From a virus, in IMG/VR virus record IMGVR_UViG_3300032287_003051, positions 1 to 37,071 of that record: DNA of 37,071 nucleotides. The stretch is one strand, 5' to 3'. A model generated the notes under the pieces. The model was not told where the DNA came from, did no database searches, and was given only the letters and a program-made list of their open reading frames with translations. Position 1 is the stretch's first letter. The number at the start of each line of letters is the position of its first letter. Shown here in pieces: positions 3,313 to 35,456 of this stretch. A program made the position numbers and the translations under genes.

Positions 3313-4944
3313 ATGGCCAGCAGGAAGAAGCCCCAGGGCCAGCCCGTCGAGGCGGTTCCAACCACGCGCCGGCCGCGGCGCGGAAGCCGGCTTTATGCCG
3401 GCGCGAAGGCGACGCGGCTCGAGGCCGACTGGGTGACGAGCTCCACCAGCGCGGACGCCGAGATCAGCAGCAGCCTGGTGCGCCTGCGCGACAGGGCCCG
3501 TCAGCTGGTGCGGGATAACGACTACGCCAGGGCCGCCCTGCGGGCGATCGTGTCCAACGTGGTGGGAACCGGCATCAAGCTGCAGGCCCAGGTCCCCATG
3601 CAGCGGGGGAAGGGCCGCCTGGATCAGGCAACGAACGACAGGATCGAGGCAGCCTGGGCCCGCTGGGGCCGGGCGACCACCTGCCACGTGGCCGGTCAGC
3701 TGGCCTGGCAGGACGTCGAGCGGCTGGTGATGCGGGCCACCGCCGAGGCCGGCGAGGTGTTCGTGCGGCTGGTGCCTGAGGCGTTTGGCGGTGGGCGGAC
3801 GTCCCTGGGCCTGGAGATCATCGAGGCCGACCTGCTCGACGAGAAGGTCGACGGATCAGGCGCTGGCGTGCAGGGCCAGCTGGCCGGGGGCGAGTGGCGC
3901 CTGGGCGTCCACGTCAACAACTGGGGCCGCCCGCTCGAATATGCGTTCCTGAAAAGCCACCCCGGCGACAGCCAGGGGCGATCGGTCGCCGCCCGGCGCG
4001 TGCTGGTGCCGGCTGATCAGGTGCTCCACATCAAGCTGACCGAGCGGCCCGGCCAGACTCGTGGGGTGACGTGGTTTGCCTCAGCGATTCGTCAGCTCCA
4101 CCAGCTGGCCGGCTTCATCGAGGCCGAGGTGGTGCGGGCCCGCGCAAACAGCAGCCTGATGGGTTTCGTGCTGACGGACGGCGACGCTGCAGGCGAGGCC
4201 CTGGGCGAGGAAGTGGAAGGCGAGTACGTGACCCAGTTCGAGCCGGGCGTGTGGAAAACGTTGTTCCCTGGCCAGCGGGTGGAAGTGCCGCAGCTCGACG
4301 CGCCGGACGGCCAGCTGGAGCCGTTCGGGCGGTTCATGCTGCGCAGCATGGCTGCAGGTGTGGGCGTCAGCTATGAGGCGATCAGCTCCGATTTCAGCCA
4401 GGCCAACTACAGCAGCAGCCGCCTGAGTCTGTTGGCCGAGCGCGAGCAGTGGAAGGCCCTCCAGAAGCAGCTGATCCGCGACCTCCACCGGCCGGTGTTC
4501 GCCGCCTGGATGCGGGCGGCGGTGCAGGCCGGCGAGCTCAGCCTGCCCGGCTACGACCTGGCGCCGGAGCGGTTTGAGGACGCCATGCGCTGGGTGCCGC
4601 GCGGGTGGGAATGGGTCGATCCGGAGAAGGAAGGGAAGGCCTACCGCGACGCCGTGCGGAATGGCTTCATCACCCGGGCAGAGGTGGTGATGAGCCGCGG
4701 CGGCGACTGGAACGAAACAATCGAGACGCTGGCGAACGAGAAAGAGGAGCTCGACGCACTGGGCCTGGTGTTCGACACCGACCCAAGCCAGGTGAGCGCG
4801 GCCGGCATCACGCAGGCCCGCCCAGCTGGATCGGTGGTGCCGGCGGAGGCGTCGGCGTCCGAGAGCGATCTGACGCCCGATCCCTCTACGCCTGCGCAGC
4901 CTGACAACGCCGGTAGCATGGGCGCAGATCCCGCCACAGGTTGA
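3313..4944 (+). CDS. Portal protein (lambda gpB family)
   Basis: Dodecameric ring at the head vertex through which DNA enters and the tail attaches. Family features are clear: an N-terminal RLYAGAKATRLEADW segment, the RDRARQLVRDNDYARAALRAI block with IVSNVVGTGIKLQAQ, the GEVFVRLV strand, EIIEADLLD, and VLHIKLTERPGQTRGVTWFA. Near residue 350 comes the SYEAISSDFSQANYSSSRLSLLAE-type conserved stretch. Length is 543 residues, normal for the family. The C-terminal 50 residues are Pro/Ser/Asp-rich and probably disordered. The start follows the previous stop by two bases, and the stop overlaps the next ATG (TGATG). Confidence 0.95.
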   Translation: MASRKKPQGQPVEAVPTTRRPRRGSRLYAGAKATRLEADWVTSSTSADAEISSSLVRLRDRARQLVRDNDYARAALRAIVSNVVGTGIKLQAQVPMQRGKGRLDQATNDRIEAAWARWGRATTCHVAGQLAWQDVERLVMRATAEAGEVFVRLVPEAFGGGRTSLGLEIIEADLLDEKVDGSGAGVQGQLAGGEWRLGVHVNNWGRPLEYAFLKSHPGDSQGRSVAARRVLVPADQVLHIKLTERPGQTRGVTWFASAIRQLHQLAGFIEAEVVRARANSSLMGFVLTDGDAAGEALGEEVEGEYVTQFEPGVWKTLFPGQRVEVPQLDAPDGQLEPFGRFMLRSMAAGVGVSYEAISSDFSQANYSSSRLSLLAEREQWKALQKQLIRDLHRPVFAAWMRAAVQAGELSLPGYDLAPERFEDAMRWVPRGWEWVDPEKEGKAYRDAVRNGFITRAEVVMSRGGDWNETIETLANEKEELDALGLVFDTDPSQVSAAGITQARPAGSVVPAEASASESDLTPDPSTPAQPDNAGSMGADPATG

Positions 4945-13460: not shown

Positions 13461-13805
13461 GGGGGGCAACCAAACCCAGACCTGCTGGCGGACGCTGAGG
13501 CCTACGGCCTGGAGCTCCCGCCCGAGACCCTGGCGCCCGTGGACTTCCCCGTGTGGCGGGAGAACTGGCCGGCGGTTGAGCTGTTCCTGCGCTGCTCGAC
13601 CCAGTGGCGCACCGGCGAACCCAGCGCCCTGGGGCCGTGCGGGGTCTACGGCCTGGACTATCAAGCGGTTCTCAGCCTAGGTAGCCTGTATCTGTCTCCT
13701 GAGGCGAAGATGCGCGACGTGCTCGAGGACCTGCAGGTGATGGAACGCCGGGCCCTCGAGCTGGCCTATGAAGCTGCGCAGCGGCAGCAGGAGCGGAGCC
13801 GCTGA
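13428..13805 (+). CDS. GT extension by -1 frameshift (DUF1799-like)
   Basis: The T part of a G-T fusion. After a -1 slip at A AAA AAC, reading resumes at 13428 and stays open to 13805, giving LTAAVEHWFGGGGQPNPD and then the DUF1799-like part (PVWRENWPAVELFLRCSTQW, GLDYQAVLSLGSLYL). The fusion spans 13042-13428 joined to 13428-13805, 254 residues. The T frame lacks a good start of its own before GTG 13539, which supports frameshift expression. In lambda the T part recruits the tail tube protein to the chaperone-tape measure complex. The stop overlaps the tape measure start. Confidence 0.85.
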   Translation, partial: LTAAVEHWFGGGGQPNPDLLADAEAYGLELPPETLAPVDFPVWRENWPAVELFLRCSTQWRTGEPSALGPCGVYGLDYQAVLSLGSLYLSPEAKMRDVLEDLQVMERRALELAYEAAQRQQERSR

Positions 13806-16306
13806 TGGCAACGACGCTCAGCGCGCTGCTGGACATCAAGGCGAACGTTACCGGCGAGGGCGCGGTGGCGGGCCTGGGGAACGCGATCGGCGGAATCCAG
13901 GCGAAGGCCGCTGCCGCCACCGGCGGGCTCAAGGCCCTGACCGGCGCGGCCGGGATGGGCGGCCTGGCGGGCGCCATGGGCGCACTGACGCCGCTGCTCA
14001 GCGTGGCCGGCCTGGTGGGCATGGCAAAGGCGGCGATCAGCGCGGGGGATGCGTTCTACGACATGAGCCAGCGGACCGGCGTCAGCGTCGAGATGCTGGC
14101 CAAGTTCAAGAAAGCGGCCGGGCAAAGCGGTACCACGCTCCAGGCCGTGGAGGGGGGATTGCTGCGCCTCAGTAAAGCCATGGCTGCGGCGGGATCCATA
14201 GACCTAGGAGGCAGAACCAAAAAGGAGATCGACGAGCTGGTGAAGGCCGTCGAGGATGGAGAAAGGAGACAGACACAGGCCATCGAACGCGAGGCGGATC
14301 GCCGACTGGCTGCGGTTGATCGCGAGACAGACGGCCGCCTCCGCGCAATTAACAAGCGATACAGACAAGAGGAGCAAAAACTTCGTGATTCACTAGAGGA
14401 CCAGGCGGCCATAGGGGAAAGCCAGGCGGCAAAGGACGAAAGGATGCGCCAGAGGCAACAACGCGACGCGCTAAACAGCCAACTCGATGCGCTAGATGAG
14501 CGCAAGCAAGCTGAGATTGATGCCGTTCGATCCTCGGCAGACGAGCAAAAAACCATTATCAAGGACGGGGCAAAGTTCCAAGTCGACACGATCAAGGCAG
14601 CCAGTGCCGAGTCCGTCAAGGCTCTGAAGGTCGACCCAGGGGAGACAGCCATCGGCCAGGAGCTTGAGGACCTAGGGCTGAGCGGCAAGGGGGCGTCTGA
14701 GGCCTTCCGGCAGCTGGGCGTCGCCGTGCGGAATCAGGACGGCACCCTGCGCAGCTCCAGCGACGTGATGCTTGAGATCGCCGATAGGTTCAAGGCCATG
14801 CCAGACGGGGCCGGGAAATCGGCCCTTGCCATGAAGCTGTTCGGCAAGGCCGGAGCCGAGCTCATCCCCATGCTGAACATGGGCGGTGGCGCTATCGACC
14901 GGCTGACCGTCAAGATGACGAAGGAGTTCGCCGCCAAGGCCGACGAATACAGCGACAAGATGGTGGCACTGGGCGGAAAGATCGGCGCGGTGGGGGCTGA
15001 CATTGCCATCGCCCTGCTGCCGGCGATCACCGCCATCACCGAGGCCCTAGTGGGGTTCTTTGACTGGCTGAACAAGCAAGATCCGATCATCAAAAACCTG
15101 ATCGGCACATTGGGCCTGGTGGCGATTGCCTTCACCGCCCTGGCGCCAGCCATCACCGCGCTGGTGGCGATCGGTGGGCCGTTGATCGGATTCCTGGCTG
15201 GAGGTGCTGGCATCGCTGGCGCGCTGGCCACGGTCGCCGGGTGGTTGGGCGCAACCAGCACAGCACTGGCGACCCTGGCTGGCTGGCTTGGCGCCGTGGT
15301 GCCATTCTTCACCGGCCTGGCCACCGCCGTGGCCGCGTTCATCACCTGGCCGGTGGTGCTGGTGGCCGCCCTGGTGGCGGCTGGCGTCGCGATCTTCGTG
15401 TTCCGCGATCAGATCGGCGCGTTCTTCAACAGCCTCGGCGAGCTGGTGCAGACCCTGCTCCAGACGATCTGGGATCTGGGCGAGCCCATCCGAGCGTTCT
15501 GGGTTGACCTGTGGAACGGCGTCATGGATGCGACCGCTCCCTTCTTCGAGTGGCTGATGGAAACAGCGGGCGCGGCCTTCGAGTGGCTGCTCGACACCTT
15601 CTACAAGGTGTTCGTCGAGCCCTATGTCAAGGCGTGGGAGGGCCTGGAGGCTGTCGGCGGGGTTTTGATCCAGGGCCTGCAGAAGGGCTGGGCATCGTTC
15701 AGCGATTGGATCGGCGGGATCTTCCGCGCCATCGGCGACACGTTCAGGCGGTTTGTGGTCGACCCGCTCACCAAGGCCTGGGTGTTCATCGTCGACACCG
15801 GCAAGGCCGCCCTGCGGGGCCTGCTGGGCTTTGCGGTGGACATCGTGAACGGCGTGATCAAGGTGATCAACGGCCTGATTGACGCGCTGAACCGGGTCCG
15901 GTCCGCCGTGGGGCTCAGCACCCTGAACAAGCTCGGCCTGCTGAGCGTGCCGAAGTTCGCAGAAGGCGGATTCGTGACCGGCCCCACCCTGGCGATGGTG
16001 GGAGACAACCCCGGCGGGCGGGAGTACGTGATCCCCGAGGGGAAGGCTGCAGGGTTCGCCGCCAACTACCTGGCCGGTGCCCGGGGGGCGGCCGCCATCC
16101 CTCCCACCAGCGGCGGGGCTTCTGCCGCCGGCGGCCCTGGCGGCCCTGTGACTGTGAACCTCAGCACCGGGCCGATCATGCAGACGGCCGACGGCCAGCG
16201 CAGCGTGAGCCTCGAGGAGGTGGAGCGCCTGGTGCGCGACGGCGTGGGCCAGACGATCCGTCAGCTGCGCACCCCCGCCGGCCGCTACGCCATGGGGGTG
16301 CGTTGA
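13805..16306 (+). CDS. Tail tape measure protein
   Basis: An 833-residue protein that sets tail length and helps DNA ejection. Residues 1-110 are Gly/Ala-rich (GEGAVAGLGNAIGGIQAKA). About 130-275 is a highly charged coiled coil (VEDGERRQTQAIEREADRR, then RQEEQKLRDSLED). Next come a conserved VMLEIADRFKAMPDGAGKSALAMKLFG block, several hydrophobic segments at about 395-545 (IAIALLPAITAITEAL, GLVAIAFTALAPAITALVAI, VVLVAALVAAGVAIFVF), and amphipathic Trp-rich repeats to about 680. The C-terminus (FAEGGFVTGPTLAMVGDNPGGREYVIPEGKA) is a common tape measure tail. Start coupled to the previous stop (TGATG). Confidence 0.93.
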   Translation: MATTLSALLDIKANVTGEGAVAGLGNAIGGIQAKAAAATGGLKALTGAAGMGGLAGAMGALTPLLSVAGLVGMAKAAISAGDAFYDMSQRTGVSVEMLAKFKKAAGQSGTTLQAVEGGLLRLSKAMAAAGSIDLGGRTKKEIDELVKAVEDGERRQTQAIEREADRRLAAVDRETDGRLRAINKRYRQEEQKLRDSLEDQAAIGESQAAKDERMRQRQQRDALNSQLDALDERKQAEIDAVRSSADEQKTIIKDGAKFQVDTIKAASAESVKALKVDPGETAIGQELEDLGLSGKGASEAFRQLGVAVRNQDGTLRSSSDVMLEIADRFKAMPDGAGKSALAMKLFGKAGAELIPMLNMGGGAIDRLTVKMTKEFAAKADEYSDKMVALGGKIGAVGADIAIALLPAITAITEALVGFFDWLNKQDPIIKNLIGTLGLVAIAFTALAPAITALVAIGGPLIGFLAGGAGIAGALATVAGWLGATSTALATLAGWLGAVVPFFTGLATAVAAFITWPVVLVAALVAAGVAIFVFRDQIGAFFNSLGELVQTLLQTIWDLGEPIRAFWVDLWNGVMDATAPFFEWLMETAGAAFEWLLDTFYKVFVEPYVKAWEGLEAVGGVLIQGLQKGWASFSDWIGGIFRAIGDTFRRFVVDPLTKAWVFIVDTGKAALRGLLGFAVDIVNGVIKVINGLIDALNRVRSAVGLSTLNKLGLLSVPKFAEGGFVTGPTLAMVGDNPGGREYVIPEGKAAGFAANYLAGARGAAAIPPTSGGASAAGGPGGPVTVNLSTGPIMQTADGQRSVSLEEVERLVRDGVGQTIRQLRTPAGRYAMGVR

Positions 16307-25430: not shown

Positions 25431-26141
25431 ATGGCTCCGTTCGACCGCTACCGACCCGAAAGCGTCACCCAGCAACTGGCGGCCGCAGCCGCGGCCTTCG
25501 GGTCCGGCCTGCGCCGCTGGCGCATCAGCAACGGATGGAGCCAGAACACGCCCCAGGACTGGGGCCGCGCGATCAACGTCGCGCACGTGTTCAACAGCCA
25601 GTGGAGCCAGCTTGAAAACGCTCGATTGCGAGGCCCCGAGCCGAAGCTGTTTGTTGCGCTGGGGATCATGAACGAGCTCCTGGCGGCCGAGAACTACGGG
25701 CCGATTCAGGACCGCAAGCTGCGGGAGGTGGTGAGCCGTGGGCGCCCCGTTCTCCACGATGACGGCCACCCCTGGGATGCCGGCGATTTCTCCGCCGCCT
25801 TCTACGGCCTGCAGGCCTGGCCCCAGTTCGCCCAGCCGCGCCCGGCGATCAGCGACAGCGAGGCGGCCACGATCAGCGGCCAGGTCCGGGACCGTTTCCG
25901 CAGCGCCTGCGAAGACGCCAAGCGGCGCCCGGGCCCCGCGATCCGTGAGCTGCTCGAGGTGGTGCCAGCCGAGGACCAGGGCCGCATGGAGGATGTCCTC
26001 CTGGGCGACAACTACAGCGGCACCGAGCTGAGCGACCTGCGCGACGACGACGGCCAGGCGCTGCCCCTGGAGTGGCTTGAGGAGTGGCAGAAGCGGGCCC
26101 AGCCGAAGACCCGCCCCGCTGGGGGGGGGGGGGGGGGGTGA
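25431..26141 (+). CDS. Putative phage repressor (HTH protein) ending in poly-Gly
   Basis: A 236-residue protein. Residues about 20-85 (AFGSGLRRWRISNGWSQNTPQDWGRAIN, then WSQLENARLRGPEPKLFVALGIMNELL) read as a Cro/CI-type helix-turn-helix of a form I associate with picocyanobacterial phages and plasmids. Residues 86-225 are acidic and helical, without the Ser/Lys pair of a LexA-type self-cleaving domain. The gene is flanked by CCTAAG-type operators and follows the integrase, the usual place of a lysogeny regulator. The reading frame ends in 18 G (six Gly codons) and then TGA. Function by context and HTH only. Confidence 0.65.
   Translation: MAPFDRYRPESVTQQLAAAAAAFGSGLRRWRISNGWSQNTPQDWGRAINVAHVFNSQWSQLENARLRGPEPKLFVALGIMNELLAAENYGPIQDRKLREVVSRGRPVLHDDGHPWDAGDFSAAFYGLQAWPQFAQPRPAISDSEAATISGQVRDRFRSACEDAKRRPGPAIRELLEVVPAEDQGRMEDVLLGDNYSGTELSDLRDDDGQALPLEWLEEWQKRAQPKTRPAGGGGGG
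26121..26138 (+). repeat. Homopolymer run of 18 G
   Basis: Eighteen consecutive G end the putative repressor gene just before its TGA. Such runs slip in replication: 19 G would add about ten residues (VTATLSTVTV) ending at 26170, and 17 G would add about eleven ending at 26175. Length may also be misjudged by sequencing. Confidence 0.85.
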
Positions 26142-30385: not shown

Positions 30386-30533
30386 TCCCCTCGCCGCCCA
30401 GCGCCAGCGGCTCTACGACCAGATCATCCGCGAGGAGGACGTGCCCGCACTGCTCGGTGGCCTCTCCGTCGACGACTACATCGCCCAGCGCGACGCCCTC
30501 AACCGCTCCGCCACAGAGGCCGACGCCGCATGA
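30372..30533 (+). CDS. Small hypothetical protein before primase-helicase
   Basis: A 53-residue gene (RPDPLAAQRQRLYDQIIREEDV, then ALLGGLSVDDYIAQRDALN). It overlaps the upstream gene by 14 bases and its stop overlaps the primase-helicase start (ATGA). Mostly helical; function not recognised. Confidence 0.55.
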   Translation: MKRPDPLAAQRQRLYDQIIREEDVPALLGGLSVDDYIAQRDALNRSATEADAA

Positions 30534-32800
30534 CACCAGCCCCCGCCCCAGGGGTGCTGCTGGACGCCTCCGCCATCGCAGAACACCTGCGCCTGCTCGG
30601 CAAGGATCCCGCCGCAACCCGTTTCCGCGCCTTCGCCCACAAGGACAACCCCCACAAGGTCGACATCGGCGCCCGCAAGCGCCAAGGCCTCGACATCGCC
30701 ATCCTCACGCGCTGGCAGCGCGAGGGCCGCGGCATCTACATCGTCATCAACGACGGTGGCGACTCGAAAGGATCCATCACCGCCTGCCGCGCGTTCTGGG
30801 TCGAGTGGGACGACCGGCCCACCGCCTGGCAGCTCAACGCATGGAAGGAGCTTGGCCTGCCTGAGCCCACCTTCATCGTCGCCACCGGCGGCCGCTCCCT
30901 CCACCTGTACTGGGTGCTCGCCGAACCGATCGCCCCAGACATCTGGGCGCCGGTGCAGGCCGCCCTGCTGGCCCACGCTGGTGCTGATCAGTCCGTGAAG
31001 GATCCCAGCAGGGTGCTGCGCCTGGCCGGATCCGCCTACATCGGCCCCGACAGCCTCCCGCAGGAGCGCGTCGCCATCGTTCGCTCCGCTGGTGCCACCT
31101 ACACCGTCGACACCATCGCCGCGGCCCTCGCTGCTGCGACTGCGGAGCCTGAGCTCCCACCGGCACCATCACCACGCCAGGGCATCCCCCTCGACGACGG
31201 GCCCACCGCCGGCTTCACGCCCCACGACCTCGCCGAGATCCGCCAGGCCCTGGGCCACATCCCACCACGCACCCCCGGCTCCTACGAGTTCCACCGCAAC
31301 GTGCTCTGGGGCCTGGTCGCTGCCGTGCAGGAGGTGGGCGGCACCATCGAGCAGGCCATCAACCTGATGGAGGCCCACAGCCCGTCTGCCTCCAACGGCT
31401 GGGACGTGGAGCAGGTGGCCCGATCAGGTAACGGCAGCGTCACCGCCGGCACGTTCTGGCACCATGCCCGGGCCCACGGTTTCAAGGGCACGCGCGCCAG
31501 CACCACACCCCCCAGCAGCAGCTCCGCCGGCGACGACGACGCTCAACCCGAGGCCGACCCCGAACGACCCAGCCGGCCACCGTCCGAGATCATCGCCGAG
31601 CTGTTCGAGACCCTCCTCGACCTCCAGACAGCCACCGGCGACACCTGGGCCAAGGAGCACGCCATCCGCGCCGAGCTCTGGCGCCTCGGCGTGCCCGCCT
31701 CTGCCATCGATGAGCGCCTGTACTACGCCCTCGCCAAACGCTGGGACCTGCCCCTTCAGGCCTCTCACGACGGTGGCCGCCGCGGCCGATCCATCGCCGA
31801 TCCCCTCGACTCCCAAGCCGTCGACCTGATCCCCGGCTTCCTGCTCTGGCAGCGCGATCACGTGCTGTTTGGAGCCGGTGGATCGGGAAAGACCATGGCC
31901 GCGGCATCCCTTGCCGTCTGCTGTATCAAGGGGCTCCCATTCCTCGACCAGGAAATCCCGCCATCCACCACCGGCAAGGTCCTATGGATCGGCACCGACG
32001 GCGGCGAGGGCGCCCGCGCCATGGTCCGCGAATACCTCGAGGATCTCGGCGTCGCCGATGACCCCGAGGTGGTCGCTGGCCTCAACATCTGGACCGCTGA
32101 GGCGTCCCAGGGAATCTCCTCCTGGGCCGCCACGCCCTCAGGACTGCAGGAGCTGAAGGACGAGCTGGAAACCGGCGGCTACGCCTTGGTGGTGATCGAC
32201 AGCCTCAAGGCCGTGCTGGAGCTCGCCGGCATCAACTTCTCCATCGGCCCCGTCGGCACGCTCATGCGCCTGCTGCAGGCCCTGGTGGGGCGCCACTGCT
32301 CACTGCTCTGGCTGCACCACCCAGCCGGGGGCAAGTCCGCCGGCAAGGGCCTCGCCGCCGCCGCCGGCAGCCAGAACATCAACCAGATCCCCTCAGCCGT
32401 CCACCAGATCACCCGGCAGACGACGGACCGCGGGCCGCTCAACACCTGGGACGTGCACAAGCTCCGCGGCGCCCCGTCGCGGGAGTTCACCTACCGCCTC
32501 GCCGAAGACGGCTTCCAGGTGGTCGACGGGCAGGTGACGAAGAACGTCCGCGCCGCGCTGCTCGACTCCATCGCCCTGCGCGAGGAGCAGGGCATCACCA
32601 CCGCCACGTCCTACATCCACCAGGAGATGCCCCAGCAGAACGAGAGCACGGTGCGCAACAACCTGACCTGGCTGCGCAAGCGCGGGTTTATTCGGAAGAA
32701 CGGCCGCCAGTGGCTGCTGACCCATCAGGGCCGCAAGCTGCTGGGCTTCATGCACCAGGGCGTCGACCTCAACCACTGGCTCAAAGGCAACGACGCATGA
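30530..32800 (+). CDS. Primase-helicase (AEP primase plus RepA-like ATPase)
   Basis: Main replication protein, 756 residues. The N-terminal part (about 15-230) resembles archaeo-eukaryotic primases: FWVEWDDRPTAWQ with paired Asp residues, GRSLHLYWVL as the SxH motif, and DPSRVLRLAGSAY. A Pro/Asp-rich linker follows near 320-350. Residues about 430-680 form a RecA-fold ATPase with Walker A (GAGGSGKT, about 446-453), Walker B (LVVIDS, about 552) and a sensor-like LLWLHHPAGG. The C-terminal 70 residues look like a winged helix (QNESTVRNNLTWLRKRGFIRKNGRQW). An iteron-rich stretch follows directly. Confidence 0.85.
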   Translation: MTPAPAPGVLLDASAIAEHLRLLGKDPAATRFRAFAHKDNPHKVDIGARKRQGLDIAILTRWQREGRGIYIVINDGGDSKGSITACRAFWVEWDDRPTAWQLNAWKELGLPEPTFIVATGGRSLHLYWVLAEPIAPDIWAPVQAALLAHAGADQSVKDPSRVLRLAGSAYIGPDSLPQERVAIVRSAGATYTVDTIAAALAAATAEPELPPAPSPRQGIPLDDGPTAGFTPHDLAEIRQALGHIPPRTPGSYEFHRNVLWGLVAAVQEVGGTIEQAINLMEAHSPSASNGWDVEQVARSGNGSVTAGTFWHHARAHGFKGTRASTTPPSSSSAGDDDAQPEADPERPSRPPSEIIAELFETLLDLQTATGDTWAKEHAIRAELWRLGVPASAIDERLYYALAKRWDLPLQASHDGGRRGRSIADPLDSQAVDLIPGFLLWQRDHVLFGAGGSGKTMAAASLAVCCIKGLPFLDQEIPPSTTGKVLWIGTDGGEGARAMVREYLEDLGVADDPEVVAGLNIWTAEASQGISSWAATPSGLQELKDELETGGYALVVIDSLKAVLELAGINFSIGPVGTLMRLLQALVGRHCSLLWLHHPAGGKSAGKGLAAAAGSQNINQIPSAVHQITRQTTDRGPLNTWDVHKLRGAPSREFTYRLAEDGFQVVDGQVTKNVRAALLDSIALREEQGITTATSYIHQEMPQQNESTVRNNLTWLRKRGFIRKNGRQWLLTHQGRKLLGFMHQGVDLNHWLKGNDA

Positions 32801-33048
32801 CCGTCCCCCCGTACCTCTCTACCAAAAAAAGAAAGCGGGAATTTTTTCTTGTAAAGGCTTGCGCTGGAATGGATCTGCCGATTCTGAGAGCGGGAATTTC
32901 GCGGGAATTTCGCGGGAATCGGGAAACGGCAGGAATTCCCGCCCATGCCCAGATTCCTCACCAGCACCTGAAATCCCGCTGTTTTTCCCGCTGATTTCAG
33001 GGCTGTTTTCGTTGCGCTGGAACGGATCTCAGAGATTTTTTCCCGCGT
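32801..33048. other. Iteron-like non-coding region; replication origin candidate
   Basis: About 250 bases without a gene and AT-richer than the rest. Three tandem 11-base units GCGGGAATTTC, GCGGGAATTTC and GCGGGAATCGG fill 32890-32922. A fourth copy (GCGGGAATT) is at 32835-32843. Inverted copies lie at 32934-32942 (AATTCCCGC), 32970-32979 (GAAATCCCGC), 32982-32991 and 33035-33046. A second direct repeat, TTGCGCTGGAAyGGATCT, lies at 32859-32876 and 33012-33029. Position after the primase-helicase and the repeat plan match plasmid and phage origins. Confidence 0.6.
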
Positions 33049-33069
33049 TTGGCCAAATACACAGAGATA

Positions 33070-33079
33070 CCCCCCCCCC
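33070..33079 (+). repeat. Homopolymer run of 10 C
   Basis: Ten C lie five bases before ATG 33085. If TTG 33049 is the true start they are inside the coding region, and a slip would shift frame; if ATG is the start they lie in the leader. Confidence 0.8.
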
Positions 33080-33084
33080 GCCGG

Positions 33085-33792
33085 ATGCTCCGCTCCGCCC
33101 CCCACCGCTGGCTGGAACCCCTCGACGGCCTGACCCGCGACCCGTCCCACCGCTACCGGCTAGGCGCCCACGTGTTCCCTGCTTCCGTGACCGGGGTGCT
33201 CAGCATCCAGAAAGCCCCGATCGCCATGCAGCGGATCGAGGCAACCCGCGCCGACTGGGAACCGCGAGGCGTCAGCGTCCACCGGGCCCTGGAGCTCGCC
33301 GCCACGGTGCCCGGCTGGTGCCCTGATCACTGGCCCGCCTGCTGGCGCTGGAGCGAGTGGATCGAGCCCCTGCTGGCCCACCCCCTCTGGCGGGAGGTGT
33401 GGATCTGCGCCAGCGAGATGGGGCTCTACTCCCTCGACCTGAACCTGGCCGGCACCTTCGACGGCGCCTTCCTGGCGCCGGGCCCTGGCGGGCGGTGGCG
33501 CCGGATCCTGTTCGACCTCAAGACCCAGGGCCGCGCGGACAACAGCGCCTACGACACGCGCCCCCAGCTGGGCGGCTACCTGACCCTCGCCGCAGAGCAC
33601 GGCATCACCTTTGACGGTGCGGCCACCATCTGGAGCCGCCCAGGACGCACCCAGGTGGCCTCCCATGGCGTCGACGAGTGCCTGACGGCATGGAACGACG
33701 CTCTGGCCGCCTACAGGGCCGTGGAGCGCCGCCAGGAGCGTGCGCGTGCTGCTGGGTTCTGCGACTTCGCAGGGGATCCGTTCGCGTTGTAG
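33085..33792 (+). CDS. PD-(D/E)XK exonuclease (RecB/Cas4-like)
   Basis: A 235-residue nuclease. AGTFDGAFLAPG followed by RRILFDLKTQGR gives the Asp and Asp-x-Lys of the RecB-family active site (about residues 126 and 147); the following QLGGYLTLAAEHG helix is the usual partner. Such enzymes degrade dsDNA ends in phage recombination; no annealing protein is seen beside it unless the SSB-like gene plays that part. TTG 33049 would add 12 residues and span the C10 run. ATG 33085 is taken as the start although neither has a ribosome binding site. Confidence 0.75.
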   Translation: MLRSAPHRWLEPLDGLTRDPSHRYRLGAHVFPASVTGVLSIQKAPIAMQRIEATRADWEPRGVSVHRALELAATVPGWCPDHWPACWRWSEWIEPLLAHPLWREVWICASEMGLYSLDLNLAGTFDGAFLAPGPGGRWRRILFDLKTQGRADNSAYDTRPQLGGYLTLAAEHGITFDGAATIWSRPGRTQVASHGVDECLTAWNDALAAYRAVERRQERARAAGFCDFAGDPFAL

Positions 33793-34298: not shown

Positions 34299-34951
34299 CC
34301 GCATCCACCGGCCAGCGCCACCGCTGGAGCGCCCCAGAGATTGAGCAGGCCCTCACCCTTGCCGGTGACGTGCCCTGGCCTCTCCTGCCCCTGCTCTACA
34401 ACCGCTGGGCCAATGCCCACGGCCACCCCCGCCGCACTGAGCCCGCCCTACGCCAGCGGGTCGAGGCCAACGGCGGCGGCCTCACCCCGACAGGAACCTG
34501 GCTCACCGCTGGCAGTGTCTCCACGATCCTGGGCCTGCACCCCAATACGGCCCGGGACTGGGCCTGCCGCTGGCCCGACATCCTGCAGCCCTACCAACCC
34601 CCGGGCCGGCCGGGATCAGGCCGCCGCGGGTTCGTCTACCTCAAGCGCGATCGAATCCGCGCGTTCGCACGGCAGCACCCCGAGCAGTTCGGCGGCATCG
34701 CCGCTGATCGCCTGATGCTGCTGCTGGAGCAGGAGCGCCTAGTGGCCGCGATCCTCGACCGCTACCCCCGCCGCCCCCTCCGGCCGGCCGAACAGACCAA
34801 ACCCGTTCGCTGCGTCGAAACCGGCGAGGTGTTCCCCTCCCGCATGGCCGCGGCCCGCGCCTGCCACATCACCAGCAGCAGCATCGGCGCCGTCGCCAAA
34901 GGCCGCGGCCACACAGCCGCTGGCTACCGCTGGGAGGAGGTGGCGGCATGA
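34295..34951 (+). CDS. DNA-binding protein with NUMOD1-like C-terminus
   Basis: A 218-residue protein. Residues about 70-125 contain a helix-turn-helix (WLTAGSVSTILGLHPNTARDWACRW) and FVYLKRDRIRAFARQHP. Residues about 168-218 (KPVRCVETGEVFPSRMAAARACHITSSSIGAVAKGRGHTAAGYRWEEV) resemble the NUMOD1/IENR repeat, a DNA-binding module of homing endonucleases, with its VxCxETGEVFxS start and GxGHTAAGYRW end. No nuclease domain is attached. ATG 34295 overlaps the preceding stop and is preferred over upstream starts inside the other gene. It may be a sequence-specific regulator. Confidence 0.65.
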   Translation: MTASTGQRHRWSAPEIEQALTLAGDVPWPLLPLLYNRWANAHGHPRRTEPALRQRVEANGGGLTPTGTWLTAGSVSTILGLHPNTARDWACRWPDILQPYQPPGRPGSGRRGFVYLKRDRIRAFARQHPEQFGGIAADRLMLLLEQERLVAAILDRYPRRPLRPAEQTKPVRCVETGEVFPSRMAAARACHITSSSIGAVAKGRGHTAAGYRWEEVAA

Positions 34952-35190
34952 CGCGTCTCCACGTCCAAGGCGTCTACATCGACCTGCGCTTGGCGTTCCA
35001 GCTGCCGGCCCACGTCTCGACCGCCAGCCTCATGGATCGCTGGGCCTGCTCGCAGCCCACCGTCTCCCGCCGCCTCCAGTCCTTGCAGCGCGCAGGCCTC
35101 GCCACCGTGAGGCGCAGCGGCCCTCGCGGCCACTACTGGATCGAGCCGGTGCGCTTCCCACAGCTGCGTGCGCTGGAGGCCGTGGCATGA
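34948..35190 (+). CDS. Winged-helix DNA-binding protein
   Basis: An 80-residue protein: LRLAFQLPAHVSTASLMDRWACSQPTVSRRLQSLQRAGLATVRRSG, then HYWIEPV. The helix-turn-helix (SLMDRWACSQPTVSRRLQSL) and following beta wing (GLATVRRSGPRGHYWI) are typical of MarR/DeoR-like domains. Coupled at both ends by ATGA overlaps. Probably regulates phage genes. Confidence 0.65.
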   Translation: MTRLHVQGVYIDLRLAFQLPAHVSTASLMDRWACSQPTVSRRLQSLQRAGLATVRRSGPRGHYWIEPVRFPQLRALEAVA

Positions 35191-35456
35191 CCCCTCTCGA
35201 CCTGTTCGACTACCTCCTGGAGCGCCGCTACGACGTCCCGGATGGTGTGCTCGTCGACTGCCTGGCCATCGCTCAGCTCAAGCCCCAGCCGAACCGGATT
35301 TACAGCTGGCAAACGCTGCTGAACCAGCTGCAGTGCTGCAACCAATCGCACCTGTCTAAGAAGCTCGGCAAACTTCGCAAAGCTGGCCTCGTCGACATCG
35401 AAGCCGGCGGTCCCGGCTGCCCGGGTTACGTGATCCGCCGAGTGGGGCCCGAGTGA
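35187..35456 (+). CDS. Winged-helix DNA-binding protein
   Basis: An 89-residue protein. After an N-terminal helix (PLDLFDYLLERRYDVPDGVLVDCLAIAQL) comes WQTLLNQLQCCNQSHLSKKLGKLRKAGLVDIEAGG, a winged-helix plan with the recognition helix NQSHLSKKLGKLRKAG. Similar in shape to its upstream neighbour but with little sequence identity. The stop overlaps the next GTG. Confidence 0.6.
   Translation: MTPLDLFDYLLERRYDVPDGVLVDCLAIAQLKPQPNRIYSWQTLLNQLQCCNQSHLSKKLGKLRKAGLVDIEAGGPGCPGYVIRRVGPE

Follow-up and report, generated by a model that had tools for sequence, protein, structure and literature searches.

The closest described precedent for the locus reported here is the SaPI/PICI origin. PICI origins carry two iteron sets directly 3' of the primase-helicase gene (PMC6092414), and the C-terminal domains of SaPI Rep and Cch2 recognise sites that immediately follow the respective genes (PMC7581432). 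Initiators in which primase, helicase and winged helix are fused are known from P4 and pRN1 (PMC4234260). At RSF1010 oriV, a RepA-type hexameric helicase, a primase and iteron binding are provided by three separate proteins, RepA, RepB' and RepC, together with the ssiA/ssiB priming hairpins. The P4 origin is split into two parts, ori and crr. A search of open-access papers for iteron origins of cyanophages found nothing relevant.

The sequence analysed here, hereafter called the window, is the complete stretch of 37,071 nucleotides of the IMG/VR virus record IMGVR_UViG_3300032287_003051. Besides tail genes and an integrase, it encodes its own large terminase, portal, major head protein, tape measure and endolysin, virion functions for which a satellite would depend on a helper, and the contig is probably a temperate siphophage rather than a satellite. 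Replication modules related to its own are found in Synechococcus and Cyanobium assemblies, which points to a picocyanobacterium as the probable host. Two peculiarities of the window were recorded in passing. An 18-base G run (26121-26138) stands at the very end of the ORF 25431-26141, before the TGA, and may be a variable tract or an assembly artefact, and ARAGORN places a tRNA-Ser(CGA) at 15542-15622, inside the tape-measure gene (13805-16306) and on the same strand, which is probably a false positive.

The intergenic gap behind the replication gene is very probably the site where DNA replication of this temperate cyanophage starts, and with high confidence it is taken to serve both as the replication origin and as the cognate site of the product of the gene directly upstream. 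The features involved are the following.

30530-32800, plus strand: replication protein, 756 aa, with an S-2L-type PrimPol (AEP) N-terminal half, an AAA_25 RecA/RepA-like helicase and a C-terminal winged helix
32540-32755, plus strand: region coding for the predicted winged helix (residues ~671-742), the proposed iteron reader; helix-helix-helix-strand-strand-helix order, pLDDT mostly 74-92
32801-33084, plus strand: proposed origin, the whole intergenic gap of 284 bp from the replication gene stop codon to the exonuclease gene
32812-32861: AT-richest 50 bp of the window (64% AT, rank 1 in 37 kb), proposed unwinding element
32835-32842, plus strand: iteron F1, GCGGGAAT
32842-32857, plus strand: T box, TTTTTTCTTGTAAAGG, between F1 and B1; aligns in relatives of both iteron classes
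32859-32876, plus strand: B box 1 (B1), TTGCGCTGGAATGGATCT; conserved in relatives
32890-32897, plus strand: iteron F2, GCGGGAAT
32901-32908, plus strand: iteron F3, GCGGGAAT
32912-32919, plus strand: iteron F4, GCGGGAAT; a partial extra CGGGAA at 32920
32935-32942, minus strand: iteron R1, ATTCCCGC
32972-32979, minus strand: iteron R2, AATCCCGC, one mismatch
32985-32991, minus strand: iteron R3, TTCCCGC
33012-33029, plus strand: B box 2 (B2), TTGCGCTGGAACGGATCT, in the same orientation as B1
33040-33046, minus strand: iteron R4, TTCCCGC, 55 bp from R3
33070-33079: C10 tract at the right border of the gap
33085-33792, plus strand: downstream exonuclease gene, putatively of PD-(D/E)XK type (phrog_298, E=3e-10)

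Four forward GCGGGAA sites are followed in the gap by four reverse ones, one of them imperfect. An earlier note on this DNA had described iteron-like repeats in both orientations behind the primase-helicase, and these are indeed present and non-random, with seven exact GCGGGAA in the gap, whereas none of 20,000 first-order Markov sequences with that composition had more than three. Apart from homopolymer runs and a GC-rich stretch at 18.2 kb, this density is unmatched by other 283-bp stretches of the window. The three tandem 11-mers of that description are F2, F3 and F4, which stand head-to-tail in 11-bp steps, but only two are identical over their length (GCGGGAATTTC) and the third has just its first 8 bases in common with them; the further direct copy is F1, and the several inverted copies are R1 to R4. 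Steps of 55 bp separate F1 from F2 and R3 from R4. The 18-base repeat reported near both edges exists as two direct copies, B1 and B2, identical at 17 of 18 positions, which lie ~55 bp inside the gap ends and not at the very edge. Likewise, the region had been delimited as 32801-33048, of which the start holds while the end of the gap is 33084. The gap is AT-richer than its surroundings, as had been noted (54% GC against 68% for the window), and the AT-richest stretches of 30, 50, 100 and 280 bp in the 37-kb window all start at 32790-32826. Multiple short repeats of one sequence, helically spaced and above chance, and an adjoining AT-rich region are what is expected of an iteron origin. The GC skew, put forward earlier as a check, counts against an origin at this place, with no inflection at 32.9 kb and a sign change near 23 kb.

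An origin of the pRN1/BIP-1 type, in which the repeats would be incidental, deserves consideration since in pRN1 and phage BIP-1 the gene for an AEP-helicase-winged-helix protein is directly followed by a stem-loop on its 3' side (PMC4234260). However, shuffled sequences fold as well as the gap (z=-0.61), so that no large stable stem-loop is seen 3' of the replication gene, and the conserved features are the sequence and the spacing of the iterons. A stem-loop origin is consequently considered very unlikely.

Scans of viral and genome collections provided 28 relatives of the helicase-winged-helix half (C-half) for which downstream DNA is available, some with identical gaps; they are referred to by L numbers. 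According to the earlier note, an absence of the repeats in relatives with the same primase-helicase would speak against an origin. This was looked for, and in all 28 relatives with the same helicase module an array lies immediately 3' of the stop codon, of CGGGAA type in 23 and of RTGAA type in five, a sequence comparison which favours the iteron-origin reading. The 23 CGGGAA loci have 2-5 forward and 1-6 reverse copies over a background of 0-0.8 per kb, and in every one of them orientation is fully segregated, with all forward copies on the left and all reverse copies on the right. The five RTGAA loci (L019, L036-L039) have no CGGGAA array and carry GTGAAA or GATGAA at 8-11 sites, which none of 2000 shuffles reached. 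The forward spacing is 55-11-11 in the window, L020-L027, L030, L031, L033 and L034, a pattern thus common to the window and a group only ~65% identical in protein; it is 55-11-10-11 in L051, 63-11-10-11 in the RTGAA loci L036, L038 and L039, and 64-11-10-11 in L019. The 55-bp step on the reverse side recurs in L020 and L027. Searching viral contigs with the pattern GCGGGAATTTCGCGGGAA returned one real relative (L011, the same as L020), and the hits L010 and L012 were discarded as chance matches.

The remaining elements of the gap are conserved as well. The earlier note had singled out the edge repeats, and rightly so: a right-hand B box occurs in L008, L009, L020, L027, L036, L038, L039 and L051, and B-like boxes lie on both sides in the RTGAA class too, so that the conservation of the B boxes appears not to depend on the sequence of the iterons. 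A C/G homopolymer of 9-17 bp marks the right end of the proposed origin in L008, L009, L015-L018, L020-L034 and L047. In CGGGAA relatives this right-hand run (at least 9 bp) is located at +254 to +345 from the stop codon, L020-L034 have an additional C9-C10 tract on the left, and such runs hardly occur in other parts of these loci. Some relatives have repeats of their own. L051 carries several copies of a second family, TGCTACC, between the stop codon and the CGGGAA array (4565-4760), which may belong to another replicon or regulator; in L038 (5249-5490) and L039 (5240-5480), the main array is preceded upstream by two additional tandem copies of a block similar to B box 2 plus TTCAC, which gives the impression of a duplicated right edge of the origin.

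As the array and the C-half are adjacent, their co-inheritance is expected, and a functionless gap might travel neutrally with the end of the helicase gene. Nevertheless, among six divergent gaps at 65-72% protein identity, agreement with the window is 67% for the iterons, 58% for the B boxes and 55% for the T box, while the rest of the gap DNA is down to 35%, and at the same protein identity the spacing is often exact. Neutral hitch-hiking is therefore regarded as extremely improbable, even though the co-segregation of motif and C-half could partly reflect physical linkage, because gene end and array adjoin.

Natural domain swaps separate the components of the locus. Throughout the CGGGAA and RTGAA loci the C-half belongs to a single group (65-96% alike), and at 65-72% likeness to the window it is joined to three unrelated types of N-half and to differing downstream genes, with the motif unchanged or in its RTGAA variant. 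The first N-half type is the S-2L-like AEP of the window, L051 and L016; the second is Prim-Pol PF09250, with PriCT_2 in those scanned (L008, L019 and L036, with which L047 groups); the third, read from the sequence of L020 and L027, appears to be a DnaG-like domain of zinc/TOPRIM look without a Pfam match. Conversely, L002 combines an S-2L-like N-half (41-46%) and a 42%-alike nuclease with a DUF3987 C-half, and its gap contains GCCAACA (= TGTTGGC) sites. The downstream exonuclease is 72-84% alike in L004-L007, of which L004-L006 have a different helicase and different iterons; in L004 and L005 (nuclease 84% and 72% alike, helicase only ~25%) these are TGGATCC-type sites in 9-bp steps. In the gaps of L002 (7587-7891), L004 (2479-2721) and L005 (5753-6000), the commonest 7-mer is arranged in two opposed arms, and its copy number was reached in none of 1000 shuffles. 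In the swapped loci, the repeat sequence tracks the C-half and not the primase, the nuclease or the downstream gene.

These swaps bear on two further explanations. Operators can take the form of short opposed repeats at the border of a gene, and the repeats might bind a phage transcription factor controlling the downstream nuclease operon. A small protein with a weak MarR-type winged helix (34948-35190, E=1e-4) is encoded downstream and is a possible regulator, as is the small adjoining protein at 35187-35456, which has no Pfam match. However, the array is unchanged when the downstream gene differs (L020-L034), it is different when the nuclease is kept and the helicase changed (L004-L006), and no sigma-70-like promoter was found in the gap, where a scan for promoters and terminators gave nothing above chance; an operator function in place of an origin is hence judged improbable. 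The R1 parC site consists of 11-bp-spaced repeats in two clusters, and the spacing and clustering seen here resemble it, as might be expected of a partition site maintaining a plasmid-like prophage. Against this, the genes scanned, which cover part of the genome, include no recognisable partition gene, the phage carries an integrase, and the motif tracks the helicase module, all of which leaves a partition site hardly credible.

The origin reading assigns the recognition of the iterons to the upstream protein. Its N-half matches the solved AEP domain of S-2L PrimPol (6zp9, E=1.6e-34) and is 40% identical to S-2L, and its middle part is AAA_25 (E=3.7e-16). The C-module is predicted to comprise a RecA-like core and a C-terminal winged helix, and fold matches of the model include Rad51/Dmc1, KaiC and RSF1010 RepA (1olo, TM 0.52 by target length). 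As the mean pLDDT of the model is only 69, the assignment of the core rests mainly on Pfam and that of the winged helix on its higher local values. A PDB profile search with the C-module returned weak matches, RepA (E=0.083) being one among unrelated ones, and the likeness to the RepA-type hexameric helicase is one of fold. Residues 704, 706 and 707, in or next to the proposed recognition helix, alone separate the iteron classes, a separation that represents one clade split. The class I/II motif difference is thereby confounded by clade, which counts against the winged-helix reading. Winged-helix substitutions had also been tried as a marker of iteron class and were dropped, as a clade retaining CGGGAA has a similar excess of changes.

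In the mechanism proposed, the C-terminal winged helix of the primase-helicase would bind the GCGGGAA iterons, and spacings of 11 bp (one turn) and 55 bp (five turns) would place several protomers on one face of the DNA. The opposite polarity of the left and right arrays suggests that two helicase hexamers are loaded head-to-head, pointing in opposite directions. Melting would occur at the AT-rich T box, which lies between F1 and the F2-F4 triplet, after which the RepA-like rings would move outward and the fused PrimPol would prime both strands, giving two forks. The direct B boxes may be a second, auxiliary site, perhaps, at a guess, for a host architectural protein or as a priming signal.

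When set beside the described systems, the proposed origin shares with SaPI/PICI (pri-rep-ori) its place directly 3' of the initiator-helicase gene, two sets of short iterons and a primase that is fused or adjacent (PMC6092414, PMC7581432). The reading of the iterons by the C-terminal domain, as in Rep, is proposed here by analogy. The suggestion in the earlier note of a new arrangement is thus tempered, two iteron sets directly 3' of a rep gene being the known SaPI/PICI layout (PMC6092414; PMC7581432), while what is new in detail is the presence of direct B boxes, the placing of the AT-rich tract outside the inner arrays and a helicase of RepA type. In SaPI/PICI the iterons flank the AT-rich region, whereas in the present locus the inner arrays are almost contiguous and the AT-rich tract is found between F1 and F2 rather than between the opposed sets, so that the comparison is limited to a works-like claim. 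Moreover, Rep is there DUF927-related or of D5/Primase_Cterm type and here RecA/RepA-like, the direct B boxes and C/G tract are features of the present locus, and it is carried not by a satellite but probably by a temperate phage that encodes virion proteins itself.

The P4 alpha protein is likewise a single polypeptide of primase, helicase and winged helix, which binds origin repeats (PMC4234260) as is proposed here, but it is described as having a TOPRIM primase and a different helicase. With RSF1010 the locus would have in common a RepA-type hexameric helicase, which the modelled C-module core resembles, a primase and iteron binding; it differs in having one fused protein in place of three and no significant stem-loop in place of the hairpins. 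Cyanophage S-2L, despite its related PrimPol domain, has a VapE-type helicase half and no significant iteron array behind the gene. Its gap, repeat-rich by eye, was dropped as an iteron example on a shuffle test in which the best 6-mer was not above chance (607 of 1000 shuffles), and this counts against the proposal insofar as the primase type is the same.

Compared with known origins, the proposed one has a different class of helicase, another position of the AT-rich tract, direct B boxes that are conserved and a C/G tract at its border, and primase types are swapped over a reader-origin cassette that stays fixed. A broader proposal, for and against which we find the case evenly balanced, is that of a cyanophage replicon family whose RecA/RepA-type helicase, joined to a primase and a winged helix in one protein, self-loads on double-stranded iterons, the polarity of the arrays setting the facing of the two hexamers. 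The primase half (PrimPol of two types or DnaG-like) would be freely exchanged, the helicase-reader half and the origin would move as one cassette, and in related phages two or more other helicase types would be followed by arrays of the same opposed plan.

A similar opposed-array plan is thus encountered in cyanophages with helicases of three or more sequence types. The primase, the helicase-reader and the origin are uncoupled by natural swaps, which makes both the iteron-reading domain and the relation of array polarity to fork direction directly testable. Furthermore, related loci are present in cyanobacterial assemblies, and a portable, self-contained initiator and origin could be useful for Synechococcus and Cyanobium.
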